From: Candidatus Iainarchaeum sp.
GTDB lineage: Archaea > B1Sed10-29 > WALL01
DNA length: 64,000 bases
Reading direction: 5' to 3'
Assembly: GCA_023129115.1 (NCBI GenBank)
Contig: JAGMCR010000013.1
Coordinates: 1-64,000, forward strand
In this document: positions 50,062 through 64,000 of the stretch, one piece after another
Layout of the letters: every line of letters starts with the position of its first letter
Numbering within the stretch: position 1 is the stretch's first letter
Translations under genes and position numbers: made by a program
The notes under the pieces: generated by a model
The model's database searches: none
What the model was told of the DNA's origin: nothing
Seen by the model: the letters and a program-made list of their open reading frames with translations, nothing else

Positions 50062-50095
50062 GGAGCCAATCTGCGCCTCGGCTCCCTATTTTTTT
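50062..50095 (+). terminator. Hairpin and T-run after the PC4-like gene
   Basis: GGAGCC (50062-50067) pairs with GGCTCC (50080-50085), followed by CTATTTTTTT. The T-run overlaps the stop of the convergent gene at 50086. Confidence 0.5.
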
Positions 50096-51447
50096 GCCAG
50101 GAATGGGTTCTTCCTCACCAGCGTCTTGTACACATTCCACCAGCCGTCAGCGTCACTCAGGTGCCTCCCGGCCTCGGCTTCCTTTCCCTTCTTCTCGTGC
50201 TTCAGCTTTGCCTTGGCCTTGCCCGTCGGCACCTCGAACTTCGTGGGGTGCCCCCACGTCGTCTGGCCGTGGTACTCCCTCTTCCCCTTCAGCGAATGCC
50301 TTGCCTTCTCATAGCTAAGCTTTGCCCACGCGTGATGCATGTGTGTAAACCACGCCTTCAGCATTTCCTCTCCCGCCTTCTCGACCTTCCGCGCCTCGTA
50401 ATCATCCCTGGACTCGCCCTCCTCCCGCGGCACGATTTTGTAGACCTTTTTCATGTGCTCGAGCGCGTCCTTCCGCGCTGCGTCAAACGGCAGCTCGTAG
50501 TCCTCAAGCCTCACGGCCTCGCCCTGCTGCTTCCGCTCCGCCAGGTCAAACATGGCGTATACCAGGTGATTCACCCCGGGCACGACGCTGTGCAGCGGCC
50601 ACCCGACTTCTAACCACGCAGTGCTTCCTGCAGTCGCGGCGTGGACGCCGGGCTCGGACTTCCTCAGCTCGTAAAGCTCCCTCAGCACATCGGAAAAGTT
50701 TTTTTGGGTCTTTTTTATCTCTCTCTCGTGCTCCGGTGTCCCAATCTTCCCGAGCAGCTTTATGTCGCGGTCCAGCCGCGCCAGGTCGCTCTCAATCGAG
50801 TGCTCGGTGAACGCCTCGCACACCCGCCGCGTCTTGCCGTAGTCAAGCTCGCCCCGATGCTTCAGCGCAAGCGCCCTCATGAAGTCGCCCCGCCGCGACG
50901 CGACGACCTGCTCCGGAACAGTCTCCTTGTTCCCGACCGGCAAAAACGCGTACGACAAGGCAATCAAGTCACCCTTCAGCGTCTCGTACCCCACCCTCTT
51001 TGCCTTAGGCTTGCCCTTGTTCCACTCCACCGCAAAGTCATTCAGGGCGTCCTTCCGAATCTTCTGGCGATTCTCGTACAGGTAGCCCACCATTTTCTGC
51101 ATCCGCTTCACGCGGCTGCCAATGAACGTCTGCCGCAGCTGCATGTTGAAGTGGTGAGCGATTGCGCCCGCGAGCACGTTCTTCTTGAAGCTCTTCCGCT
51201 TCCGAATTGTGTCCACGATTGCCTCGGCCTCGTGGCTTCGCCGTCCCTTCAGCAGGGGGTGCCGCGGCGCCAGCACGCGCGAGAAGTCAAGGAACTGGCC
51301 CCAGTATTCTCCGTCCCTGGCACCGTCGCGCTGCTCCCGCTTATGTATCCACTCGCGGATGCTGCCGTCCCTGATTTGCCCTGGCTTCCTGGCGATTTCG
51401 CCGAAAAAGTCGAACTTCCGCCTGAATTCCAGCTCCATCTTGGGCAT
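50086..51447 (-). CDS. Large hypothetical protein divergent from HerA-like gene
   Basis: 453 residues from ATG 51447, the start that fits the TATA-like box about 26 nt away (ATTATATAC on the minus strand, about 51469-51477). The protein is basic, soluble and mainly helical, rich in K, R and aromatic residues, with no recognised domain. Possible clusters are FKKNVLAGAIAHHFNMQLRQTF and WFTHMHHAWAKLSYEKARHSLKG (several His). It shares a 36-bp divergent promoter region with the HerA-like ATPase, which suggests joint control. Nucleic-acid binding is a guess. Confidence 0.7.
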   Translation of the reverse strand: MPKMELEFRRKFDFFGEIARKPGQIRDGSIREWIHKREQRDGARDGEYWGQFLDFSRVLAPRHPLLKGRRSHEAEAIVDTIRKRKSFKKNVLAGAIAHHFNMQLRQTFIGSRVKRMQKMVGYLYENRQKIRKDALNDFAVEWNKGKPKAKRVGYETLKGDLIALSYAFLPVGNKETVPEQVVASRRGDFMRALALKHRGELDYGKTRRVCEAFTEHSIESDLARLDRDIKLLGKIGTPEHEREIKKTQKNFSDVLRELYELRKSEPGVHAATAGSTAWLEVGWPLHSVVPGVNHLVYAMFDLAERKQQGEAVRLEDYELPFDAARKDALEHMKKVYKIVPREEGESRDDYEARKVEKAGEEMLKAWFTHMHHAWAKLSYEKARHSLKGKREYHGQTTWGHPTKFEVPTGKAKAKLKHEKKGKEAEAGRHLSDADGWWNVYKTLVRKNPFLAKK

Positions 51448-51483
51448 CACCTATTTATACGCTTATTCCGTATATAATCCTGC
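51448..51483. promoter_or_regulatory. Interleaved divergent promoters
   Basis: Only 36 bp separate ATG 51447 (minus) and ATG 51484 (plus). The plus-strand TATA-like ATTTATAC (about 51452-51459) lies closer to the minus gene, and the minus-strand TATATAAT (about 51471-51478) closer to the plus gene. Each is about 26 nt from its own start. Transcription in one direction should exclude the other. Confidence 0.65.
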
Positions 51484-53847
51484 ATGGAATTCAAGCCAAG
51501 GGTCAACTCCCCCCTGGACGCGCTGGAAGACGCCGCAGGCCGCAGCATTTTCGTGGGCCGCAGCCAGGCCCTCCACCGCAAGTACGGCCGCGAGGGCGCC
51601 CTGCTGCTGGGCAAAGTCGCGGAACAGGAAAAATACGGCGAGTTCGTCTACCTCGACGCATTGATGCCCCACACCATTTTCGTGTGCGGTTCAAAAGGCT
51701 CTGGCAAAAGCTATTCGATATCAATCATCGCCGAGGAATTGATTTACAAGAACCCAAATGTCGCAGTCGTAATCATCGACCCCATCGGCATCTTTTGGTC
51801 CATGAAGTACCCAAACCAGGAAGAGTCCGAGCTCGACGAATTGATTCGCATGGGCCTCGCGCCGCGCGGCGTCGCCGAGACGCGAGTCTTCGTCCCGTAC
51901 GGTGTCCGCAACACTTTGCCGCGCGACACCTACGACAAGACGTACGCACTGCGCCCCGCCGACTTGAACGTGGACGACTGGTGCATCACTTTCGACATCG
52001 ACCGGTTCTCCCCAACCGGCCTGCTCCTCGAAAAAACGCTCGAAAAAGTGTTCAACGGCTACAAGACCACGGACAAAAAGCACGTGAACCCCAACCCGGA
52101 CTACGGCCTCGAAGAAATAATCAACTGCCTCAACAACGACGCAGAGCTTTCCTCGAAGACCAAGGGCTTCAAGACGGACTCGCGCCGCGCGCTGACGTCC
52201 CGCTTCGAGTCGGCAAAGTCGTGGGGCATTTTTTCCGCGAGCGGCACTCCGCTCGTCGAATTGTGCCAGGAGGGCAAGGTCTCTGTAATCGACGTCTCGT
52301 TCCTTGACGAAAAAGTCAACGCGCTCGTCATCGGGCTGCTCGCGCGAAAGATTCTTAACGCGCGCAAGCTCGCGACGCGCAAGACCGCGATGAAGCGGCT
52401 CGCCGTGTCCATGGAGGAAGTCCTGGAGACCGGCATCCCGCCGACGTGGCTGTTCATCGACGAGGCCCACACCCTGATTCCCTCGGGCTCGCAGAAGACC
52501 GCCGCCTCGGACGCGCTCATTGAGTACGTGAAGCAGGGCCGCCGCCCGGGATGCTCGCTCGTGATGGCGACGCAGCAGCCCGCCGCGCTCGACACCAAAG
52601 TCCTCTCGCAGCTCGACCTGCTGGTCTGCCACAAGCTCACGTTCGACGACGACATCAAGGCCGTGTTCAAGCGAATGCCCGCGGGCATCCCCAAGGAGTA
52701 TTCCGCCCGATTCATCAAGACGCTCCCAATCGGGTATTGCTTGATTGGCGACAGGAGCGACCACACGAACAGGGTGTTCGCCGCCAAAATGCGGCCGCGG
52801 TTCTCGCAGCACGAGGGCCGCGAGACGCGGAGCGTCGACTTCGAGGAGACCCTGTCCGCGGAACAGGTGGAAGAGCTTGTCGTAAAGATGGTCAAGAAGC
52901 AATTGGTCGACTTCGGCCGCGTGAACCTTTCCAAAATAGACCAATTGGCCCGCACCATCAACAAGCGCTACGGCACCAAAGTCTCTGCCAAGTCAGTGGT
53001 CAAGGCAATCGAGGGCGCGGCGGTGGACAACGAGCAGCTCGTGCTGAAGGAAATCCTTGAGCAGGAGCAGGCCGCGGCCGAGGACTTGCCTGAAGAGCCG
53101 GCGCCCGAGGCGCCGAGCGGCGAGAACCTGCTGGCGTTCACTTCCCAAATCAGCGCGGAGCGGGCGAAGGGCCTGGCATTGAAGCAGCGCAAGGCGAAAT
53201 TATTCGGCTTGTTCGGGGACGAGGAGTCCTTGAAGGACCTGCGCATCGAGTACTGGCCGGTGTACAAGGTGGAGTACGACTATTACCAGGGCAAGGGCTT
53301 CAAGCGCTTGGTGTGCTACGTGGACGGCATGAACGGCGAATTGTTGAGCGTCGGCAGGGCGGGGATGGCCTCGACGCGCGGCGTGGGCCGCTTGACCACA
53401 ATGAACAAGAGCAAGCGCAAGATAATCGCGGCCCTGCGCAAGGGCAAGCAGGCGAGCGCGAAGGGAATCGCGGGCGTCGCCGAAATCACCGAGACGACCG
53501 CGCGGGCGAACGCGGAGGAATTGGCCGAGGACGGCCTGCTCTCTTATCGCGACGACGGCCGCGCCCGGACTTACGTGCTGAAGGAGCAGTTCGACCTGCC
53601 GCAGAAAATCAATGTGCCGGAGTACACTACTCTTGAGTCGCAATTAACGATGGGCGAGGCGAGCGGGTTTGTCCCCACGCCCCGCATCACACAGGAGTCT
53701 GTTTCCGACATCCCCGCGATTTTCGGCGAAGTAAAAATCAAGTCTGTTTCTTTCGTGTACCGCCCGGTCTACCACGCCTCGTTTGCCTCCACGAAGGGCC
53801 CCCGCGACGTCTACATAGACGGCATTGACGGGGCGGTGGCAAGATGA
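51484..53847 (+). CDS. HerA/VirB4-like ATPase with C-terminal wHTH and repeat domains
   Basis: 787 residues. RecA-fold pump-type ATPase: Walker A GSKGSGKS (69-76), Walker B WLFIDEAHTLIP (D326, E327), and VMATQQPAALDTKVLSQLD, as in HerA, FtsK and conjugation ATPases. A winged helix follows around 650-700 (KIIAALRKGKQASAKGIAGVAEIT). It is flanked by two related units, YWPVYKVEYDYYQGKG...CYVDGMNGE and YRPVYHASFASTKGP...YIDGIDGA. This build occurs in archaeal HerA-like proteins lacking NurA partners; none is adjacent here. It probably moves DNA or a polymer. Coupled to the next gene by overlap. Confidence 0.87.
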   Translation: MEFKPRVNSPLDALEDAAGRSIFVGRSQALHRKYGREGALLLGKVAEQEKYGEFVYLDALMPHTIFVCGSKGSGKSYSISIIAEELIYKNPNVAVVIIDPIGIFWSMKYPNQEESELDELIRMGLAPRGVAETRVFVPYGVRNTLPRDTYDKTYALRPADLNVDDWCITFDIDRFSPTGLLLEKTLEKVFNGYKTTDKKHVNPNPDYGLEEIINCLNNDAELSSKTKGFKTDSRRALTSRFESAKSWGIFSASGTPLVELCQEGKVSVIDVSFLDEKVNALVIGLLARKILNARKLATRKTAMKRLAVSMEEVLETGIPPTWLFIDEAHTLIPSGSQKTAASDALIEYVKQGRRPGCSLVMATQQPAALDTKVLSQLDLLVCHKLTFDDDIKAVFKRMPAGIPKEYSARFIKTLPIGYCLIGDRSDHTNRVFAAKMRPRFSQHEGRETRSVDFEETLSAEQVEELVVKMVKKQLVDFGRVNLSKIDQLARTINKRYGTKVSAKSVVKAIEGAAVDNEQLVLKEILEQEQAAAEDLPEEPAPEAPSGENLLAFTSQISAERAKGLALKQRKAKLFGLFGDEESLKDLRIEYWPVYKVEYDYYQGKGFKRLVCYVDGMNGELLSVGRAGMASTRGVGRLTTMNKSKRKIIAALRKGKQASAKGIAGVAEITETTARANAEELAEDGLLSYRDDGRARTYVLKEQFDLPQKINVPEYTTLESQLTMGEASGFVPTPRITQESVSDIPAIFGEVKIKSVSFVYRPVYHASFASTKGPRDVYIDGIDGAVAR

Positions 53848-54887
53848 TGCGGGAGCTGGCGAGGCAGCATTACATTGAGACCATGAGGCGGCTCCCGAAG
53901 TATGAGGGCGTCGGCGAGAGCTTCCACGACAGGGAGGCGGAGCGCTACGCAGACTTTTACACGCTCGGCCCCCGGCAGGGCGCGACCCTGGCGAACCTGC
54001 GGGAGCACGGCAGCGAAGAGCACCCCGAGGGCCTGAACGAGAAGAGGGTCACCGAGTGGCTCGCCTCAAAGTTCGTGGATGAGCAGGCCATGGCGCTGAG
54101 GCTTGTGCCGGGCCTTGCCCCGGACCCCGAGTTCAAGAAGATGGCCGACGTCATGGCGCACTGCCGCGAAATCATCAGGAACAAGTTCGGCGAGGGCACC
54201 AAGGAGTTCAAGAGCTTCCGGCTCAAGCACCTCCGCAACACGCTGGTTGACTATACCAACATGTACTTGTACGGCCCGAGGGGCAAGGTCGACCGGGGCT
54301 GGCTCAAGAGCAGGATTGAAAGGTTCGACTACTTGTGGGCAGTGCCCGGCTGGGACCCGCACCCCGAGTTCGCGGGCGTGGGCGAGCCAATCAGGCGGCT
54401 TCGGGAGAGGCAGGAACAGGCCGGCGCAACGCTCGATGAGCCACTGGCGCCAAGGGCTTCGTCGCTGCTCCGCGCCGTCAAGCCCGGGGAAACAACTCCT
54501 ACTCCAACACCAGAACTGGGGGTGTCGCCAGAACAGTCTCCGACGCCAACCGGGGGGACGCCAAAACCGGGGACGCCTGCTCCAACGCAAGAACCGGGGG
54601 TGTCGCCAGAATCGGCGACACCCCCAATTGCTGAGGCTGGGGAACCCGAGAAGCCAATTCCCGTGCTGAAGCAGGAAGAGGAAGAAGACGTGCTTTCCCT
54701 GCTGAAAAAGGAGACCCAAAATGACCTGCTCATCCACGCCCGCACCCTGGCCATGCTCAAGCCAGGAAAAAAGGTGACCATGGGAGACGTGGACCTATTG
54801 TCGTCTAAGATTATGGACCGCGGCATTGGCTACGAGGACGCGAAGAAGATAGCCAGGAAAATCATGGAGCAGGCAAGGCAGGGGTAG
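53844..54887 (+). CDS. Novel protein with Pro/Thr linker and shared C-terminal module
   Basis: 347 residues, starting at overlapping ATGs (53844/53847) on the HerA-like stop. The N-terminal helical domain (1-205) is not recognised. A linker (about 213-275, TPTPTPELGVSPEQSPTPTGG) follows, encoded by short DNA repeats including a perfect 12-bp inverted repeat (54596-54625). The last 55 residues (HARTLAMLKPGKKV...RGIGYEDAKKIARKIME) match the C-termini of the proteins at 55886 and 57919. Translational coupling suggests that it works with the ATPase. Confidence 0.7.
   Translation: MMRELARQHYIETMRRLPKYEGVGESFHDREAERYADFYTLGPRQGATLANLREHGSEEHPEGLNEKRVTEWLASKFVDEQAMALRLVPGLAPDPEFKKMADVMAHCREIIRNKFGEGTKEFKSFRLKHLRNTLVDYTNMYLYGPRGKVDRGWLKSRIERFDYLWAVPGWDPHPEFAGVGEPIRRLRERQEQAGATLDEPLAPRASSLLRAVKPGETTPTPTPELGVSPEQSPTPTGGTPKPGTPAPTQEPGVSPESATPPIAEAGEPEKPIPVLKQEEEEDVLSLLKKETQNDLLIHARTLAMLKPGKKVTMGDVDLLSSKIMDRGIGYEDAKKIARKIMEQARQG
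54596..54625. repeat. Palindromic repeat within coding linker
   Basis: GGGGGTGTCGCC and GGCGACACCCCC are perfect 12-bp arms with a 6-nt loop. Just upstream, at about 54552-54563, GGGGGACGCCAA repeats the half-site of the 24-bp palindromes at 7699 and 44907. Confidence 0.7.
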
Positions 54888-54892
54888 TTGCC

Positions 54893-55819
54893 ATGAAGGC
54901 GAAGAGCAGCAGGCACAGGGTTGAGGAAGGCATTCGCGGCTCCCCCAAGAACCGGACTGAGCAGGTCGTCCATTTCCTGGAGCCAGGCAAGGACCTCCAC
55001 ATCAAGGACATAACCCAAGAGGCCTACAAATATTTCGACATTGACCGCAAGCAGGTCCTGTCCACACTCATGCAGGGGGCAAAGGGGCCCGGCGCTTTTT
55101 TCGAGAGGATTAAGCCCGCCCATTACCGCCTGACGCCCCTGGGCAAAGAGCTCCAGAAGCTGGTCGAGCTGCCGCCCATGCGCGAGCTCCCGCCCGAGCC
55201 AGAGCCCGAGCCGCCGAAGAGCATTGAGGAAGCGCTGGAAGAGGAGTACTTCAGCATCACGGGCAAGAACCGCTCCAGCAAGCGCGTGCAGGATTCGGCA
55301 AAGCGCTTCAGGAACCTTTTTTTGACGGGCGTGTGGGCAACCGCGGAAAGCGAGGCGCCCAAGGGCTCGACCAGCGGCGTGGTGCGCAGGAAGAGGAGGC
55401 GCATCCTGTCCTGGATTAGCACCCACAAGCGGAACGCTTCGGAGCTCGCGAGGCTTGTGCAGGGCGAGCGCGAGTTTATGTACCCCGAGCTCATGAAGGA
55501 CGCCAAGCCACACCCCGAGCTCGCGGAAAAAATGACTGTGCCAGTGAAAAAGCAGGCTGTCGAGCGCTGGGACTTGGGTGCGAAGTACGACGACGCCATT
55601 TTCGCGGTGTGCAGGGAAAGGGAGTGCACGCCCCAGTTCCAGGACCCGCGCTTCACGGCGAGCGACACCAGCCGCCACCTATTGCTGGCCATGCTGGTGA
55701 GGGACGCCCGGGAAGAGGTCGAGTCATGGGAAAACCCACCCAAGGCCTACGAAAAGGACAAGCTCGGCTATCTGAGGAAAATTGTCGAGAACTGGGTCAA
55801 AAACAAGCACAAGGGTTGA
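54893..55819 (+). CDS. Novel protein with N-terminal winged-helix-like domain
   Basis: 308 residues. Residues 15-85 look like a winged helix (TEQVVHFLEPGKDLHIKDITQEAYKYFDI...YRLTPLGKELQKLVE). A Pro/Glu linker (PPEPEPEPPKS) and a helical C-terminal region follow (VRRKRRRILSWISTHKRNASELARL, then TSRHLLLAMLVRDAREEVESW). No known family. It lies 5 bp after the preceding gene in the same operon as the HerA-like ATPase, which favours a DNA-linked role. Confidence 0.68.
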   Translation: MKAKSSRHRVEEGIRGSPKNRTEQVVHFLEPGKDLHIKDITQEAYKYFDIDRKQVLSTLMQGAKGPGAFFERIKPAHYRLTPLGKELQKLVELPPMRELPPEPEPEPPKSIEEALEEEYFSITGKNRSSKRVQDSAKRFRNLFLTGVWATAESEAPKGSTSGVVRRKRRRILSWISTHKRNASELARLVQGEREFMYPELMKDAKPHPELAEKMTVPVKKQAVERWDLGAKYDDAIFAVCRERECTPQFQDPRFTASDTSRHLLLAMLVRDAREEVESWENPPKAYEKDKLGYLRKIVENWVKNKHKG

Positions 55820-55822
55820 TTC

Positions 55823-55882
55823 TGTCTAGACGTTTAGATTAAAACCCTACTATTTTATAAACTGTCTAGACATTTAAATTAA
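55823..55882 (+). promoter_or_regulatory. Double TGTCTAGAC operator, copy 1
   Basis: TGTCTAGACGTTTAGATTAA (55823-55842) and TGTCTAGACATTTAAATTAA (55863-55882) are direct repeats 40 bp apart that flank the TATA-like ATTTTATAA. The second covers the likely transcription start, just before ATG 55886. The same layout precedes the gene at 57919. Confidence 0.75.
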
Positions 55883-55885
55883 TTA

Positions 55886-57853
55886 ATGGAGAAGCGCGGC
55901 AGGAAGAAGGGCTACAGGTACACGAAGTACGACCCCAAGCGCTATTACTCTCCTGGCGACGCCCGCATCGAGGTTTGGAAGCGCATCGAGAAAAAGGAGT
56001 TTGAGAAGGGCTTCTTCTCGTACAAGGAGAACCGTGTGCTCGCCATCCAGATGCTCGTCGCGAAGCTCGTGCGGGACAAGGGCCTCCAGGTAAGCGAAAT
56101 CACGAGGGACCACTTCAGGGAACACGGCATGGACTGCCTGATTACTTATTTCAAGTCCAAGGAAAAGGCGCTCCGCGCCGCGGGGTTTTCCGACGAGTTA
56201 ATCACGACCAAGCCGGCGGAGCACGACGTCAGGGACATTCGGAGGGCCGTCCGGCTCATCAAGGGCGTGAAGGCCTCGGAAGACATTGACGACACCTTGG
56301 ACGGGCTGCACCGCAAAGTCTTCGGCAATGTGCCCAAAAAGATTGGCTACCGCTATCTCCTGAAACTCGCGGAGGAGCACACCGGAATTAAATACCGCAC
56401 GCTTTACCAGCTCTTCAACCCGAATTACGCGCGCTTCAAGAAGTACAGCCCCCGGCTCCGGGAGGAAATCCACGCCATCCGCGAGCAGTGGGGCCTCGAG
56501 GGAGAGACGGAGCCGGGCGAAGTGAAGCGCCCGGTGCACGTCCCGGGAGAAAGCCCGTTCAAGATGAGGGGCCTGACCGCCGAGGAAAAAACGCTCCTGC
56601 AGGACATACGCACGGGCTTCAGGAACTGGGACTTGACCTTCCTCTCGAGGAAGAAAAAGATTCCTGGCAATGTATGGACTGTCCTGATACTCCCCGAGGT
56701 CAGGAAGCTTTCGAAAGAGCTGCTCAAGAAAAGCCCTGAGCACGAGCCCAGGCTGCTGAGGATGCTCCGCAGGATGTACAAGCGCTCAAGCCACCGCACG
56801 CGGGGCGACAAGCTCCTCGAGAGAGTCAAGGAGTCCCTCGAGAGGGAAATGCTCCTCGGCGGGCCAGAGACAGGAAAAACGCGGGAGCTCCGGCTGCCGG
56901 CAGGCGTGCTGGACAAGCTGCTCCCGTTCATGACACCGAACCGCCGCCTCCAGGAAGTGCTCGAGGAGGCACAGCAGTACTTTCCCGAGTTGAGTTTCCC
57001 CCAGGCCGAGGCCGCGGTCTATCTCGACAGGAGCAGTATTGACCCCCACATCAACCTGTCTTTCTTTGGCGGCGATTACGTGCGGACCAAGAAGGGCGAG
57101 GAGGCAGCGGCGTCCATTCTCCTGCCGCCGAAGCTTGGGACCCCGGCGAGGGAAGGGCTCGACCAAAAGCGCCTGCAGGAAGAGTCGGCCCGCGAGGAAG
57201 TGGAGCGGCTGAAGCGCGTGGCCGAAGAGGAATTGACCCCGGAGGAGAAAGAAGAACTGTTTGCCGACAAGGCACTGGAGGACTTCACCAGCGCCACCGG
57301 CGTCAAGGGCATGGTCGCCCAGCGGTTCAGGAACTATGTCAGGGCAGGCCCAGAGCATGATGTCAAGACACCGTCGGAGCACGCCACGAAGGAAGAGTTC
57401 AGGCTGCTGGGGCAGGAGATCCCCAAAGCCGGAATCGGCTTCAAGCAATGGCAAATCAAGCAGTGGCTCTCGAGGTACCTTGCGCACCCCGAGCTCAAGA
57501 AGTACCGGCGGGAGGACGAGCCGCTCCATGAAGTCGAGGAAGAGCCGCCCGAGATTCCGGTCCCAAAGACCAAAAAAAGGAAGAAAATCGGGCCGCCAGA
57601 GCCAAAGAAAGAAGAAGAGCCCCCGAAGCCCGCCGGCCGGCCCAGGGAGGTAAAGTCCCTGCTCGAGGGCCTCTCGGCGGCGGACCGGAAGAACTTTGAC
57701 AGCCAGGCCCGCGGCCTCCTCAGGCAATGCGGTGGAGACGCCAGAAAGGCGACGGACCTGCTGGCCCAGAGCGTTTCGCGCCTGGGCTACGGCCCCCGCG
57801 AGGCCAGCAGGATAGCAGCCAAAATAGTCGAAATAGAGAAAAAACTCTACTAA
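55886..57853 (+). CDS. Novel multidomain DNA-binding-like protein (paralogue A)
   Basis: 655 residues. An N-terminal domain of about 210 residues contains a unit like the homing-endonuclease-associated repeat (VSEITRDHFREHGMDCLITY, FKSKEKALRAAGFS), then GYRYLLKLAEEHTGIKYRTLYQLFNP. A central domain (about 228-330, EEKTLLQDIRTGFRNWDLTF) and the C-terminal module (SQARGLLRQ...LGYGPREASRIAAKI) also occur in the paralogue at 57919. A charged middle and Pro/Lys linker lie between. No nuclease motif is seen. Expression is probably controlled by the double operator upstream. Confidence 0.75.
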   Translation: MEKRGRKKGYRYTKYDPKRYYSPGDARIEVWKRIEKKEFEKGFFSYKENRVLAIQMLVAKLVRDKGLQVSEITRDHFREHGMDCLITYFKSKEKALRAAGFSDELITTKPAEHDVRDIRRAVRLIKGVKASEDIDDTLDGLHRKVFGNVPKKIGYRYLLKLAEEHTGIKYRTLYQLFNPNYARFKKYSPRLREEIHAIREQWGLEGETEPGEVKRPVHVPGESPFKMRGLTAEEKTLLQDIRTGFRNWDLTFLSRKKKIPGNVWTVLILPEVRKLSKELLKKSPEHEPRLLRMLRRMYKRSSHRTRGDKLLERVKESLEREMLLGGPETGKTRELRLPAGVLDKLLPFMTPNRRLQEVLEEAQQYFPELSFPQAEAAVYLDRSSIDPHINLSFFGGDYVRTKKGEEAAASILLPPKLGTPAREGLDQKRLQEESAREEVERLKRVAEEELTPEEKEELFADKALEDFTSATGVKGMVAQRFRNYVRAGPEHDVKTPSEHATKEEFRLLGQEIPKAGIGFKQWQIKQWLSRYLAHPELKKYRREDEPLHEVEEEPPEIPVPKTKKRKKIGPPEPKKEEEPPKPAGRPREVKSLLEGLSAADRKNFDSQARGLLRQCGGDARKATDLLAQSVSRLGYGPREASRIAAKIVEIEKKLY

Positions 57854-57856
57854 TTC

Positions 57857-57915
57857 TGTCTAGACGTTACGATTAATACCACTAGCTTTATATAATGTCT
57901 AGACGTTACGATTAA
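57857..57915 (+). promoter_or_regulatory. Double TGTCTAGAC operator, copy 2
   Basis: TGTCTAGACGTTACGATTAA occurs at 57857-57876 and 57896-57915, 39 bp apart, flanking the TATA-like CTTTATATA (about 57886-57894). ATG 57919 follows. It is nearly identical in design to 55823-55882, so one factor probably controls both paralogues. Confidence 0.75.
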
Positions 57916-57918
57916 TCA

Positions 57919-60900
57919 ATGCCCAAGGGTTTGGAGGAAAGGAAGCTCGGCCGCAAGCCCGGCTTTAAGTTCCCGAAGGTCGAGCCGGACAAGCTGCGGC
58001 CAATAATCAAGGATTATCTTGAGAAGAAAAGGGATTCGCTCGCGGACGGCTTCTGGACGCACGAGGACCAGGCGGCGACTGCGGTGCGCATGATGGTCGG
58101 GAAGCTCGTGCGGGACCGCGGCCTGCAGGTGAGCGAAGTCACTCAAGACCATTTCCCTGAGTTTGGCATGGGGAGCGCGCTTAGGGTTTTCGGCTCGAAG
58201 GAAAACGCGCTCAAGGCCGCGGGGTTTTCTGACGAGCTAATCAATACAAAGCCGGCGGAGCACGATGTCGCGAGCATTCGAAACGCGGTCCGCTTGATTG
58301 AGGGCGTCAAGGGCCCGGGGGACATTGACGAGGCTTTGCACAACTTGCACCGCAGGGTGTTCGGTGATTCTCCCAAGCGGGTCAGCTATCGTTATTTGCT
58401 GAAGCTCGCGGAAGAATACACGGACATCAATTATCGCACGCTTTACCAGCTCTTCAACCCGAAGTATTCCCGGTTCAAGGATTTCGACAAGGGCCTCAAG
58501 GACGGCATAAAAGCAATCCGCAGGCACTGGCGCATCGGGGAAAAAGTGGCGGTGAAGCGTGAAGTGTACTCGCCGCTTGACCGCGGTTTGCTGGAGAAGC
58601 GAAAGCGGGCGAGTGCCGACGAGCGAAAGGCGGCTCACTGGTTTAACGTTAATCTCAAGGATGCTAGTACTGCTTCCGTCGGGGGGCTGAGGCGCGGCCT
58701 CACGGTATTGCCGCTGCTTTCGCACGAGGTGCGTGTGGCAATCCTCGCGCGCCTTAAGCCTGAGAACTATGACTATCGCGTGTCTTTCAGGAAAGGCGTC
58801 GTGGGGTTGACTACGAAGGAGCGGGAGGCGATAAGGCCGCACGTGCCCCCCGGGCTCAAGGAGCTTTTTGACGAAATCCCGCTTGGCGGAGTGGACCTGG
58901 AGCTGCCTTCGGCAAAGGCGGCTGAGGAAGACTTGTGGGAGAAGCAGAGGGAGCTCCAGAGGCTGGAGACCCAGAAACTGATTGAGGAGTGGAAGGAAGA
59001 GCTGCTGGAAGAGGGGGAGAGGCAATTGCGGGAGAAGGCGAGGGACGAGCAGGACTACCAGAAAATGCGTAGGGCAGAGGAAGAAAAGCTGGAGAGGCAG
59101 CGCAAGGCGGAGACGTGGAGGCGCTTGCTGAAGGAGAAGAGGGCGGAGCAGGAAAGGGAGGGGAGGGAGAAGGCGCTTGAGGAAAAGAAGAGGCAGCGCC
59201 AGGAAATGAAGCAGAAGCTGTTCGAGGAAAAAGAGGAAAAGAAGCGCTTGGGGATGGAGGCGAAGCGGCTCAAGAAGCAAAAGGAAGAGCAGGAGCGCGA
59301 GGCGCAGAAGGAATGGGAAAAGCAGCAAAAAGAATTGCAGAAACAGAAAGAAGCCGCGGAAGTTGTCGAGAAAGGCGTTGCCTTCTTGGAGGAGTCGGCT
59401 GAGGGAGAGGGTTGGTTCGTTAGTTCTAAGGAGCGTGTGGACCGGGTCCCGCTTTCGTTCTTGTCGGGGGAGCTAGACAAGCCTGGCCCGAGACTAGGGA
59501 AGTATTTTGATGGCATGTCCTCCGAGCAGCTGGAGCGCGTGAAGGCGGCTGCAGACAAAAACGCGGCAAAGCAGGCGGCGAAGAAGGCGGTGAAGCAAAG
59601 GGCGGTGGAAGAGCAGGAGCTGGCGAGGCGGGAGGCCTGGGCGAAGAGACAGGCGGAAATGGAGAAGGCTCGGGCGAAGAGAAAAGAGGAAGTGGAGAAG
59701 GCTCTGGAAGCGAAAGCCGGGGAGGAAGCGAGGCTAATCAAGGAGCTCACCGAAGCCAGCGCCCCAGACCTCCCTGCCATGACACATACCCAGAAGATTT
59801 ACGAGTTCGGCCGCACGCACAAGGGCTTCAGGACAAACGAATTGATGGCGTGGCTGGAGGCACGCGATCCAACCATCTCGCGCAATCGCCATGGCGTGTA
59901 CTATGCTATTGGGCGAATGTACAGGAACAAAAAAGAGCTGTCCAAGACGGACAGCGTCTACACTTTTACTCCGGAGGGGGAGCGCAGCATCAAGCTCCAC
60001 GAGGGCCTCAAGGGGAAGAGAACCCCAGAGACCATGGCCGAAAGAATCTTCTCTTTGGTAGAGCCGGGAGTGGGGTATTCAAGCCACTGGCTTATCGAGA
60101 ACCTGTCCAAGCATTACAAGGAAGACAAGGACCTGGACTCCAAGACGTTCAGCACCAAGATTCACGCCAGCCTGCACACCGGCCTTCTCTTCGAAAGGCC
60201 GGACTATGTTTATTTCCTGACGCCCAGGGGGGTCGAGAACAGGAAGCCGATTGCGTCCGTCCATGACCTCAAGGAAGCGCTGGGCGAGCCCCCCGCAGAA
60301 ATTGCCGGCGAGGCCGTTGAGCTGGAGATTGGCGGCAAGCCCAGAAGGGTCGTGCTCACCCCCAAAGAAAAGGAGATCCTGGGCAAGCTCCGTGGCGGCT
60401 TCGAGAAAAAGACTTTGCGCTTTGTCGCCACCGAAAGGTTCCTCCAGGCTTACGGCAATTTGATAGTGCCGGAGGTGGAAAAGCTGGCACTGAAGTTCCT
60501 CAGGGACAACCCGACTGCCGGGGCACTTGAGACCCTGCGCGTTATAGTGGGCACCATGTACGCGGACCCCAAGACGGCGAGTGCCGGCAGGATTATCAGC
60601 AACGTAAGGGCAGAGCTCGCCAAGGAAGGCATTGAAGTAAAAGAGCCAGCCCCGCAGAAGGCGGTTGCGCCCGAGGGGCCCAGCGCCACGGAGGAAGAGC
60701 TCTGGGCGGAAATAATTGCGCGGCAGAAAGAAGAGGAGAAACAAAAGAAGAAAGAAGAGCCAAAAAAGCCTTCAGGCGCGGGGAAGCCGGGCAGGGCAAA
60801 ATTCGGGGAAGAGCGCCCGCCCGTGTCGCTGAAGGACTTGCCGGCCACAGAACAGTACAACCTCGCTGTCCAGGCCCGCAACCTGCGCAAGAAGTTCAGC

Positions 60901-61008
60901 CCCAGCCAAGCCGTGCGATTCCTGGCCGAGCAGATAGAGGCCAAGGGCTACGGCAAGGCCGACGCAGTAAGAATAGCAAAGGAAATCCTGGAGAAAGAAA
61001 AGCAATAG
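57919..61008 (+). CDS. Novel giant coiled-coil DNA-binding-like protein (paralogue B)
   Basis: 1029 residues. Residues about 1-200 match paralogue A (VSEVTQDHFPEFGMGSALRV, then FGSKENALKAAGFS, GYRYLL replaced by SYRYLL). A long charged coiled coil spans about 330-615 (EKQRELQRLETQKLIEEWKE onward). Two winged-helix-like units follow about 620-770 (MTHTQKIYEFGRTHKGFRTN and MAERIFSLVEPGVGYSSHWL). The second shared domain is near 815-905 (KEKEILGKLRGGFEKKTLRF). The C-terminal module (AVQARNLRKKFS...KGYGKADAVRIAKEIL) ends it. The layout suggests an elongated DNA-bridging or structural protein; function unknown. Confidence 0.75.
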   Translation: MPKGLEERKLGRKPGFKFPKVEPDKLRPIIKDYLEKKRDSLADGFWTHEDQAATAVRMMVGKLVRDRGLQVSEVTQDHFPEFGMGSALRVFGSKENALKAAGFSDELINTKPAEHDVASIRNAVRLIEGVKGPGDIDEALHNLHRRVFGDSPKRVSYRYLLKLAEEYTDINYRTLYQLFNPKYSRFKDFDKGLKDGIKAIRRHWRIGEKVAVKREVYSPLDRGLLEKRKRASADERKAAHWFNVNLKDASTASVGGLRRGLTVLPLLSHEVRVAILARLKPENYDYRVSFRKGVVGLTTKEREAIRPHVPPGLKELFDEIPLGGVDLELPSAKAAEEDLWEKQRELQRLETQKLIEEWKEELLEEGERQLREKARDEQDYQKMRRAEEEKLERQRKAETWRRLLKEKRAEQEREGREKALEEKKRQRQEMKQKLFEEKEEKKRLGMEAKRLKKQKEEQEREAQKEWEKQQKELQKQKEAAEVVEKGVAFLEESAEGEGWFVSSKERVDRVPLSFLSGELDKPGPRLGKYFDGMSSEQLERVKAAADKNAAKQAAKKAVKQRAVEEQELARREAWAKRQAEMEKARAKRKEEVEKALEAKAGEEARLIKELTEASAPDLPAMTHTQKIYEFGRTHKGFRTNELMAWLEARDPTISRNRHGVYYAIGRMYRNKKELSKTDSVYTFTPEGERSIKLHEGLKGKRTPETMAERIFSLVEPGVGYSSHWLIENLSKHYKEDKDLDSKTFSTKIHASLHTGLLFERPDYVYFLTPRGVENRKPIASVHDLKEALGEPPAEIAGEAVELEIGGKPRRVVLTPKEKEILGKLRGGFEKKTLRFVATERFLQAYGNLIVPEVEKLALKFLRDNPTAGALETLRVIVGTMYADPKTASAGRIISNVRAELAKEGIEVKEPAPQKAVAPEGPSATEEELWAEIIARQKEEEKQKKKEEPKKPSGAGKPGRAKFGEERPPVSLKDLPATEQYNLAVQARNLRKKFSPSQAVRFLAEQIEAKGYGKADAVRIAKEILEKEKQ

Positions 61009-61077
61009 TAGTTTCATCCGTATTCAATATCTCCCGCAAACAAAGGTCTTTATAAACTACTCCTGCGTTTATTGCGT

Positions 61078-64000
61078 ATGCCCAAGCGCGGAAAGAAAAA
61101 GCGTGGCTCCAGGTTCAGCGTCGACAAGGCGGTTGTCCATCTCGAGAGCCGCATCGATTCCGGCGAGGGCTGGCCGCTCACACAAGGGAGGAGGCGGCCT
61201 GATGGCTTGCCGGCCTCTTTTTTGGGCAAGAAGTTTGGCGTTAGCACGGCCACGGTTTTACGCCACTTCGAAGGCATCAGCGCCGGGCACAAGAAGCGCC
61301 TTGCAACAACAGTCAAGAAAAACGCAGCAATCCAGGCAGCGAAGCGCGAGAGCGGCGAAGTAGGCAAGCTCTTCAAGAGGAGGGGGGACGCAATCCTCCA
61401 CATAGAGCAGCTCGTCCAGTCCGGCGAGGGCTGGCCGATTACCGATGGCGTACCAAGTAAGTATGGCATACCAATCCACGGGCTGGCGAGGCGCTTTGGA
61501 GTCGCCCCCGAGACTGTGAGGGCGTGGTTCGATACAATGTCTGCCACGCACACAAAACAAATCAAGGCAGCAGTGAAGAAAAACGAAAGAATCCAAAAAA
61601 AGAAGCGCGAGACCGAAGGCCAGGCGACGGCGTGGACAAAGAAAAATCTTGACGCCGCCCTTAATCACTTGGACGGGCTCGTCCAGTCCGGCGAGGGCTG
61701 GCCGTTGGGCAAGGGCAGGAGGCGCGCCGATGGGGCGCCGCTCACTCTCCTGGCAGCGCAGCTTGGCTATTCCCACAAGGGGGTGACTCACTGGTTTGAC
61801 AACATCACTCCCAGGCACGCGGCTCGCTTGGCAAAGATTGTCGCGAAAAACAATGCCGTCCAAGAAAAAAAGAAGGCGGCCGGCGAGCCCAGGCTGTCGG
61901 CAGCGGGGATAAACTGCGAGGCTGCCCTGTCCCATTTGGAGTCGCTTGTTAAGTCTGGTGCCGGGTGGAGCCTGCACTACGTAAGGCGCTCCGACAGCGT
62001 GCCGACCAGTATTGTGGCCAATCACTTGGGGGTTTCTTATTCGACGGCCATGCGCTTGTTTGAGAAGCTTCACCCCAGCCACGAGAAGCGCGTGAAGAAA
62101 GTCGTGAATGCAAACAAGCGGCTGCAGAAGAAGCTGGAAAAGCTCTATGGGCCGCTTAATCCCAAAACTCGGGCGCAGCTCGAAAAGGCCCTCGGCCACT
62201 TGGACTCGCTTGTGAAGTCGGGCGAGGGGTGGGAGCTGGCCGGCGGCAGGCCGCCGAAGCATGGTGTCCCCTACGGCGTTTTGGCCGATAAGTTCAACAT
62301 GACGAACGCAGGCGTGCGCGTGTGGTTCACCAATATGGGGAGCGTCCACGCGAAGCGGCTGAAAAAGATTGTTGCGGCGAATGACCGGATTCGGAAGAAA
62401 AAACTGGGGACCGAGGGGGTCTCGCGGGCGGAGGCGGTAATGCGGCGGGAGGCCGCCATCGAGCACCTTGAAGAGCGCGTCAATTCCGGGGAGGGCTGGT
62501 CTATTAAGGGGCGGAGGACGGCTGACGCGATTCCTTTCACGCTTTTGGGCAAGAAGTTCAACAGGCGCGCCAATATTGTTGCGGCATGGTTCAAGAACAT
62601 GCCTGCAGGCCACAAGAAGCGCGTGGAAAGGGTGCTCAGGAAGAACGCTAAGCTGTGGGAGAGGACGGGAGAATCCACGTTGCACAAGAACCGCGGGCAA
62701 GCAATTTCTTATCTCGAGTCCCGCGTGGAGTCGGGCGAGGGCTGGGACACTGCCTATGTCAAGCATGCGCTGGGCGTTCCCCTCCAGCTTTTGGTCGAGC
62801 ACTTTAAGACAAGCGTGACCACGCCGGGGAAGTGGTTCGCGGACGTGCCGGCTGCCCACAAGAAGCGCATCAAGAAGGTCGTGAAAGAGAATGATGCGCT
62901 TCAGTACGAAAACGTGGATACTGTCGGCCGCTGGGCACAGGACAGGCACGAGGCGTTGTCCCACTTGGAGAATCGTGTGAAGTCCGGCGAGGGCTGGCCG
63001 TTGCGCGGCAGGAAGTGGGGCAAGCCCCCGTATACTCTATTGGCGGAGCATTTCAATGTCGCCTCGCCCACTGTAAAGCGTTGGTTCGAAAAAATTGGTG
63101 AATCGCACCACGCGCGCCTCAACAAAGTGTTGACGGAGAACACAGTTCTCCAAAAGAAAAAGGGGGAGGGTGTGCTCTCCCCACAAGAATTGAGGAAGCT
63201 TGAGAAATCACTCGCCTTCCTCGAGGGCCGTGTTGGGTCGGGCGAGGGCTGGTCCAGGCGCTACGGCCGCAGGCACCCCGACCGCTTGCCGGTCATGCTT
63301 CTGGCCGACGGGCTTAATGCAAGCAAGGAGAAGGTCAAGCAGTGGTTCTCGAAGGCCACTCCAGGCCATGTAGAGCGCTTGGCGAAAGTCGTTGAGGCGA
63401 ACGACGAGCTCCAGGACGCGAAGCCCCCACAGAAGTCCAGCACGTCCAGTGTCGTGGTACTCAAGAAAATCAACGCGGCCATGGGCCGCCTAGACGAATT
63501 GCTGGAGGAGGGCGGGTGGCGCCCCTCTTGGCGCGCGGACGGTGTGCCTGTTTCCGTCATCGCGAAGGAGATGAAGAAGAGTGGCCCAACAGTGAGGTAC
63601 TGGCTGGAGAGGATGACCGAGGAACAAAAGGCGCGGTTGACCGCACAAGTGAAAAAGAATGCTGGGATTCAGGCCGCGAGAGCTGAAGAATCGAAGAGGC
63701 AGGCAGAAGAAATCAAAAAGGCGAAGGCGGCCGAGCGCGGGAGGCAGAAGCAAGCCGAGCGGCTTGCGGAGAGGGAGAAAAAGATTGATGATTCACTTGA
63801 CCACTTGAAAACATTGCTTGGGGGGGATGGCTGGTCGCTGAAGCACGGAAGAAACCGGGTGGACCGGGCGCCGGTTCGCATTATGGGCAAGCTTCACGGC
63901 GTCAGCCGGCTGACCGCCGCCTCGTGGATGAACAACGCGACCGAAGAGCAGAAGCAGCGGCTCGCGGTTCTCGTGGGGGAGAATGACGCAATCCAGGCGG
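61078..64000 (+). CDS. Giant tandem HTH-repeat protein (SGEGW repeats), 3' end beyond window
   Basis: An open frame from ATG 61078 to the window end, 974 codons without a stop. A TATA-like CTTTATAAAC (about 61049-61058) is at leaderless distance. At least eleven repeats of 82-104 residues are present. Each has the form HLExxVxSGEGW-PL-GRR-DG-P, then a helix-turn-helix (LLAKKFGVSxxTVxxWFxxM) and H-KRLxKVVKKNxxIQxKK. The SGEGW-type motifs start at 61159, 61420, 61687, 61954, 62218, 62485, 62731, 62983, 63238, 63508 and 63820; the last two are degenerate. No catalytic domain is seen yet. It probably coats or counts DNA sites; I know of no described family with this layout. Confidence 0.82.
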   Translation, partial: MPKRGKKKRGSRFSVDKAVVHLESRIDSGEGWPLTQGRRRPDGLPASFLGKKFGVSTATVLRHFEGISAGHKKRLATTVKKNAAIQAAKRESGEVGKLFKRRGDAILHIEQLVQSGEGWPITDGVPSKYGIPIHGLARRFGVAPETVRAWFDTMSATHTKQIKAAVKKNERIQKKKRETEGQATAWTKKNLDAALNHLDGLVQSGEGWPLGKGRRRADGAPLTLLAAQLGYSHKGVTHWFDNITPRHAARLAKIVAKNNAVQEKKKAAGEPRLSAAGINCEAALSHLESLVKSGAGWSLHYVRRSDSVPTSIVANHLGVSYSTAMRLFEKLHPSHEKRVKKVVNANKRLQKKLEKLYGPLNPKTRAQLEKALGHLDSLVKSGEGWELAGGRPPKHGVPYGVLADKFNMTNAGVRVWFTNMGSVHAKRLKKIVAANDRIRKKKLGTEGVSRAEAVMRREAAIEHLEERVNSGEGWSIKGRRTADAIPFTLLGKKFNRRANIVAAWFKNMPAGHKKRVERVLRKNAKLWERTGESTLHKNRGQAISYLESRVESGEGWDTAYVKHALGVPLQLLVEHFKTSVTTPGKWFADVPAAHKKRIKKVVKENDALQYENVDTVGRWAQDRHEALSHLENRVKSGEGWPLRGRKWGKPPYTLLAEHFNVASPTVKRWFEKIGESHHARLNKVLTENTVLQKKKGEGVLSPQELRKLEKSLAFLEGRVGSGEGWSRRYGRRHPDRLPVMLLADGLNASKEKVKQWFSKATPGHVERLAKVVEANDELQDAKPPQKSSTSSVVVLKKINAAMGRLDELLEEGGWRPSWRADGVPVSVIAKEMKKSGPTVRYWLERMTEEQKARLTAQVKKNAGIQAARAEESKRQAEEIKKAKAAERGRQKQAERLAEREKKIDDSLDHLKTLLGGDGWSLKHGRNRVDRAPVRIMGKLHGVSRLTAASWMNNATEEQKQRLAVLVGENDAIQA

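Follow-up and report, generated by a model that had tools for sequence, protein, structure and literature searches.

The last gene of the window, as we call the whole analysed stretch of 64,000 nucleotides from a Candidatus Iainarchaeum sp. contig, raises the question of what a giant protein built from serial helix-turn-helix (HTH) domains does behind a HerA-like ATPase in an archaeon. This host belongs among DPANN archaea of the Diapherotrites/Iainarchaeota type, and an archaeal SRP RNA lies within the window. The open reading frame begins at 61072, with an ATG at 61078. Extension along the contig (G000:C5, 90,725 bases), which the sequence-only reading had recommended, places the stop codon 926 bases past the window end (Table 1). 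The encoded protein comprises 1,282 aa (143 kDa) and is very basic (pI 10.2), and its C-terminal module (1212-1283) is common to the 655-aa protein (466-543) encoded upstream.

Table 1. Coordinates of the features of the HerA-headed locus (window positions unless a contig or locus is named)
Feature	Position	Strand	Details
454-aa gene	50086..51450	-	divergent from HerA; synteny with HerA, on its upstream side, kept in several genomes of the order
HerA-like ATPase, 787 aa	51484..53847	+	DUF87 above cut-off; Walker A GSKGSGKS, Walker B WLFIDEAH in sequence
347-aa protein	53844..54887	+	4-base overlap of its start with the HerA-like stop; C-terminal domain common to 655-/1,029-aa proteins
308-aa protein	54893..55819	+	winged-HTH-like domain common to sister-genome protein B694
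Operator-like element TGTCTAGACGTTTAGATTAA	55823..55842	+	upstream of 655-aa TATA box
Operator-like element, second copy	55863..55882	+	between 655-aa TATA box and ATG
655-aa protein	55886..57853	+	paralogue of 1,029-aa protein
Operator-like element TGTCTAGACGTTACGATTAA	57857..57876	+	upstream of 1,029-aa TATA box
Operator-like element, second copy	57896..57915	+	between 1,029-aa TATA box and ATG
1,029-aa neighbour	57919..61008	+	N-terminal domain common to 655-aa protein; C-terminal domain common to 347-/655-aa proteins
Giant TATA box TTTATAAA	61049..61056	+	29 to 22 bases before ATG
Giant HTH-array protein gene	61078..64000 in window; stop at contig position 64926	+	ORF call
Repeat R1	61117..61353	+	profile A1, E 9.4e-32
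Repeat R2	61375..61614	+	repeat profile
Repeat R3	61642..61878	+	repeat profile
Repeat R4	61912..62142	+	repeat profile
Repeat R5	62176..62409	+	repeat profile
Repeat R6	62443..62673	+	repeat profile
Repeat R7	62686..62919	+	repeat profile
Repeat R8	62941..63168	+	repeat profile
Repeat R9	63196..63429	+	repeat profile
Repeat R10, diverged	63463..63690	+	repeat profile
Repeat R11, diverged	63778..64011, cut by window end at 64000	+	repeat profile
Repeat R12	64441-64668, contig positions outside window	+	repeat profile
G003 1,424-aa winged-HTH array	L145:2850-7124 (G003:C30)		repeats 279-288 nt apart for five, sixth 1,263 nt on

The giant protein holds twelve repeats, each scoring 82-104 bits against a profile built from its own repeats; eleven start inside the window, in agreement with an earlier count of at least eleven. 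A unit consists of about 80 residues and four helices, and units lie about 88 residues apart, the repeat length first proposed. Starts lie 81-105 residues apart from R1 to R11 and 221 apart from R11 to R12, the latter gap holding an unrelated linker in which a winged-HTH-like stretch was recognized by eye. Pairwise identity is 25-43% among R1-R9 and 22-43% among all units, with R10-R12 more diverged; unequal spacing and degenerate late repeats had been described before. The same profile places a thirteenth copy in the upstream 1,029-aa neighbour (59365-59592). Five residues are invariant (G17, G19, W20, P33 and N70): the two glycines and the tryptophan form a GxGW turn, the proline precedes the HTH and the asparagine lies in the last helix. 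Of the SGEGW motif, initially called invariant, this GxGW core holds throughout, but the full motif does not, as R4 reads SGAGW, R10 EGGW and R11 GGDGW.

The invariant glycines, proline and asparagine are encoded by differing codons in different repeats, and pN is lower than pS in all 36 pairs of R1-R9 (mean 0.44 vs 0.64), a register-shifted control giving a pN of 0.71-0.76. The repeats are under purifying selection. Tandem Repeats Finder sees no DNA-level tandem array in the giant gene, which rules out an assembly artefact or a recent DNA amplification.

For a single repeat, AF2 with a 13-row alignment (pLDDT 87.9) predicts helices at residues 3-16, 34-41, 45-53 and 57-80. The second and third are joined by the three-residue turn GVS, giving the canonical HTH signature LA..FGVS..TV..WF, and are followed by a long basic helix. 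A two-unit model (pLDDT 80.5, pTM 0.56) returns the same four helices per unit, their mutual orientation being unreliable. Both models thus contain the HTH and adjoining basic helix that the sequence-only reading had described, and not the HTH-free structure it had named as counter-evidence. Pfam searches point the same way: the whole protein matches HTH_Tnp_4 (5e-12) and HTH_23 (7e-9), and single repeats, which mostly fall below Pfam cut-offs, reach 2e-4 at best, their best matches being HTH models of transposases and homeodomains. The best solved-structure match of the repeat profile is the engrailed homeodomain, at its HTH (E 0.03, not significant alone). A Foldseek search of the PDB with the single-repeat model gave no significant match (best E 1.1), which is usual when the domain is small and helical; its top matches, all at E >= 1.1, are mostly HTH regulators and sigma factors, and the doublet model returned nothing informative. 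Other helical repeat families were also considered: Pfam finds no PPR or mTERF model in the giant, whose period and helix pattern differ from the 30-35-residue helical hairpins of those proteins. Taken together, Pfam profiles and the predicted fold support the identification of the repeat as an HTH. The repeat shares its helical core and signature with the transposase and homeodomain HTHs (HTH_Tnp_4, HTH_23, Homeodomain), but it adds a conserved SGEGW-P loop and a long fourth helix, and it occurs as 12 copies in series without a catalytic domain.

The HTH fold, the strong basic charge, the DNA-binding-like neighbours and the DNA motor that heads the locus make DNA binding by the array likely. 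Its HTH folds could instead form a protein- or RNA-binding scaffold that does not read DNA, since some HTH-fold domains bind proteins or RNA and packing could be the role of the conserved W, N and Q. This alternative is distinctly improbable, as the giant has a pI above 10, its fourth helix is basic and well conserved, its best matches are DNA-binding HTH families, and DNA-binding-like modules cluster beside a DNA motor. The most economical mechanism for a DNA-binding array would be a flexible HTH chain that grips or bridges long stretches of double-stranded DNA, and we infer that binding is multivalent. Each of the twelve HTH domains in series would insert its recognition helix into the major groove, and the long basic fourth helix would contact the backbone or pack against the next unit.

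Repeat-to-repeat variation of the recognition helix, proposed earlier as a check, bears on whether such a chain might also read sequence. Residue 1 of this helix differs in 12/12 repeats, for which the composition of the protein itself gives a P of about 0.003, and its column is the only one in which all repeats differ. Residues 1, 2 and 6 vary more than other exposed helix positions (P 0.004), exposed HTH positions vary more than exposed H1/H4 positions (P 0.009), and the scaffold residues G, G, W, P, N, R and Q are kept. The repeats differ most where the recognition helix would touch bases. The four most variable positions of the helix (45, 46, 49 and 50) are spaced i, i+1, i+4, i+5. In surveyed HTH-DNA complexes (PMC4653904) the four protein positions with most DNA contacts have this spacing too, a comparison made without superposing the two numberings. 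These features are consistent with a sequence-reading array, TALE-like in logic and not in fold, in which each HTH would read a few base pairs and the whole array would specify one long target. It would represent a new natural class of sequence-reading proteins made of whole HTH domains, and not of TALE or zinc-finger units, that arose by amplification and recognition-helix diversification at a HerA-linked DPANN locus, a sister lineage having done likewise with a winged-HTH unit. As a joint claim this is unlikely, if worth keeping in view: there are only 12 repeats, unconstrained exposed sites vary too, the irregular spacing is poor for strict in-register reading, and the array is absent from close relatives. 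The recognition-helix pattern would fit repeats with different preferences and, equally, relaxed surface positions.

TALE-type repeats are 33-35 residues long and have two helices, whereas the giant's unit is of about 88 residues and four helices, with irregular linkers, 22-43% identity and no regular period. Myb and multi-homeodomain proteins, which carry about 2-5 HTH units, place serial HTH domains on adjacent DNA sites, as is proposed for the giant; the latter differs in having 12 units, an archaeal host and an unrelated repeat family. Serial HTH proteins are thus already on record, and the known natural DNA-reading arrays are few, comprising zinc fingers, TALE-like proteins and the families of a 2024 survey. 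We know of no HTH protein of the giant's length or with its repeat, and its twelve full HTH domains are the longest HTH series known to us. TALE, BurrH and STAR proteins (PMC4066763, PMC11417379) are tandem arrays like the giant, which may share with them the combination of a conserved scaffold and a few hypervariable residues at presumed DNA-facing positions. Neither HTH nor archaea come up in the main text of the 2024 survey, which covers DNA-binding tandem repeat proteins (PMC11417379) and notes that some 71% of novel repeat clusters are orphans, chiefly owing to the poor sequencing of neighbouring species. This fits an array without relatives outside its own locus lineage.

The full twelve-repeat array is known from one genome. 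No relative of it was found in 394 archaeal genomes, 19 genomes of the phylum, GTDB contigs, IMG/VR, phages or plasmids, in keeping with the original remark that no similar HTH array could be recognized; the scan of genome contigs rests on exact peptide patterns, alignments A1 and A2 being too variable for degenerate ones. Single divergent copies of the repeat occur only in the same archaeal family, directly behind the HerA-like ATPase: those in genomes G003 and G004 are probable (first-pass E 0.06-0.5), and a sister genome has a weak copy. An additional HTH-like stretch in the 1,128-aa protein of G004 (aa 439-489) reaches E 2.7 only. The G003 locus, joined from two contigs that overlap by 127 identical bases, encodes a protein of 1,424 aa in which a winged-HTH repeat of 93-96 residues occurs six times (67-88% DNA identity). 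HTH arrays therefore grew twice, in two genera of one family, from different modules at the same locus.

What the array serves may be indicated by the genes that precede it. The HerA-like ATPase reported nearby heads the cluster; it scores 59.3 bits against DUF87 (cut-off 23.2), contains both Walker motifs and has an HTH-like stretch near its C-terminus. HerA-like ATPases belong to a hexameric DNA-translocase family. The proteins between this enzyme and the giant, previously described as paralogous DNA-binding-like proteins, are real relatives by their shared domains. The interior of the 1,029-aa protein combines a K/E-rich coiled-coil-like stretch, its single repeat copy and a winged-HTH-like stretch. 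Large modular proteins lie directly 3' of HerA in 5/5 genomes of the window's family, and only there, and modules are reshuffled among them, including the N-terminal domain (with a weak HNH_repeat match), the SGEGW HTH, the winged-HTH-like domain and the C-terminal helical domain. Judged by their sequences, the cluster proteins are a fast-evolving, module-shuffled set of DNA-binding-like proteins behind a HerA-like ATPase. The divergent 454-aa gene upstream also belongs to a fast-evolving family, one with no Pfam or NCBIfam match.

The HerA-like gene itself has a match in 19/19 genomes of the phylum and is thus a core chromosomal gene, and for this reason a mobile element or virus was rejected as the source of the locus. 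Its closest relatives are DPANN proteins, from MAGs labelled DPANN, Diapherotrites or Candidatus ainarchaeum. Close relatives L077, L081 and L095 come from MAGs labelled Falkowbacteria and Chloroflexi and are probably mis-binned archaeal contigs. In the orthologues L050 (G003), L057 (G015), L058 (G017), L113 and L125 a long insert splits the P-loop; in L113 and L125, whose frames span 1,300-1,580 aa, the sequence GSGK-CVTGDT... resembles an intein start.

A DNA-delivery machine, one of the roles first suggested, would make the cluster part of a conjugation apparatus, for which the upstream HerA-family ATPase and a very weak HMM similarity to CedB/CedD could be cited. It is highly improbable: transmembrane-like segments are absent from all cluster proteins (hydropathy over 19 residues peaks at 1.55), phages, plasmids and IMG/VR hold no relatives, and the HerA-like gene is chromosomal throughout the phylum and does not belong to a transfer element. 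A defence or conflict locus, in which variable HTH proteins would recognize invading DNA and the HerA-like ATPase would act on the invader, could account for the fast divergence, the module shuffling and the lineage-specific arrays, and the HerA-like protein matches PADLOC HerA models. Such a match is expected of any HerA relative, however, and the phylum-wide chromosomal setting, the lack of a mobile-element context and the lack of any effector among the cluster proteins, be it a nuclease, Sir2 or another (Pfam, NCBIfam, PADLOC), leave defence a rather unlikely role. MADS, considered because of mad1/mad8 matches in PADLOC, was rejected as these were too weak. The locus shares its HerA/DUF87 core with HerA-NurA and with HerA defence systems, but the cluster offers no nuclease or Sir2 partner, and a PF09376 search found no NurA in the genome (88.6% complete).

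On balance we lean towards reading the giant as a cytoplasmic protein of the HerA locus that binds DNA multivalently and serves the HerA-like ATPase. The cluster set might mark, organize or load DNA for the HerA motor in chromosome organization, segregation or repair, and a DNA-organizing role of the giant itself is possible. Joint action of the giant and HerA is what we infer from gene order, its only basis; a separate TATA box before the giant gene and the absence there of the operator-like element described below speak against it. In these archaea, whose genomes are tiny, a second HerA-like ATPase that occurs phylum-wide stands out as the anchor of a DNA-binding-like locus that evolves rapidly.

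Archaeal TATA boxes lie 27-32 bases before the start codons of the HerA, 655-aa, 1,029-aa and giant genes, and the giant gene has its own promoter, probably a leaderless one. In the 655- and 1,029-aa promoters a TCTAGAC-type element (TCTAGACRTTAANATTAA, TGTCTAGACRTTWMGATTAA) stands on either side of the TATA box, with 39-40 bases from copy to copy. Beyond these four operator-like copies the 1.25-Mb genome has none at <=3 mismatches. Both G003 and G004 have related elements before their cluster genes, and the G001 gene is preceded by a version that diverges more. At <=3 mismatches, a five-genome search yielded 12 matches, of which 10 fall at the cluster, and a reversed control gave 7; at <=2 mismatches none occurred in a 1.1 Mb background of other loci. 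Duplication may account for part of the likeness between the 655- and 1,029-aa promoters, although conservation of the element in other genera speaks against duplication explaining all of it. In the window genome, its confinement to the locus implies a locus-specific DNA-binding regulator. The element co-occurs with the cluster's N-terminal domain in the same four genomes, the domain not being found in G002, which makes the N-terminal-domain proteins (655 and 1,029 aa) the best candidates to bind it. An operator-like element of its own opens a route to the function of the HerA-anchored locus.

The surroundings of the cluster show further features. An Orc1/Cdc6 gene lies close upstream of the HerA-like gene in several genomes, and an arginyl-tRNA synthetase gene lies downstream in the window genome, as it does in G003, where it was recognized by eye on the contig that continues from the locus. 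The sister-genome contigs of G001 and G002 end inside the cluster, and three of the five family assemblies (G001:C25, G002:C89 and G003:C6) break there immediately behind HerA, a pattern suggestive of repeats or of variation between strains at this point. On the opposite strand, 3' of the giant gene (L002:8367-11618), NikR-like, HicB-like and HEPN/nucleotidyltransferase-like toxin-antitoxin pair genes were recognized by eye from sequence.
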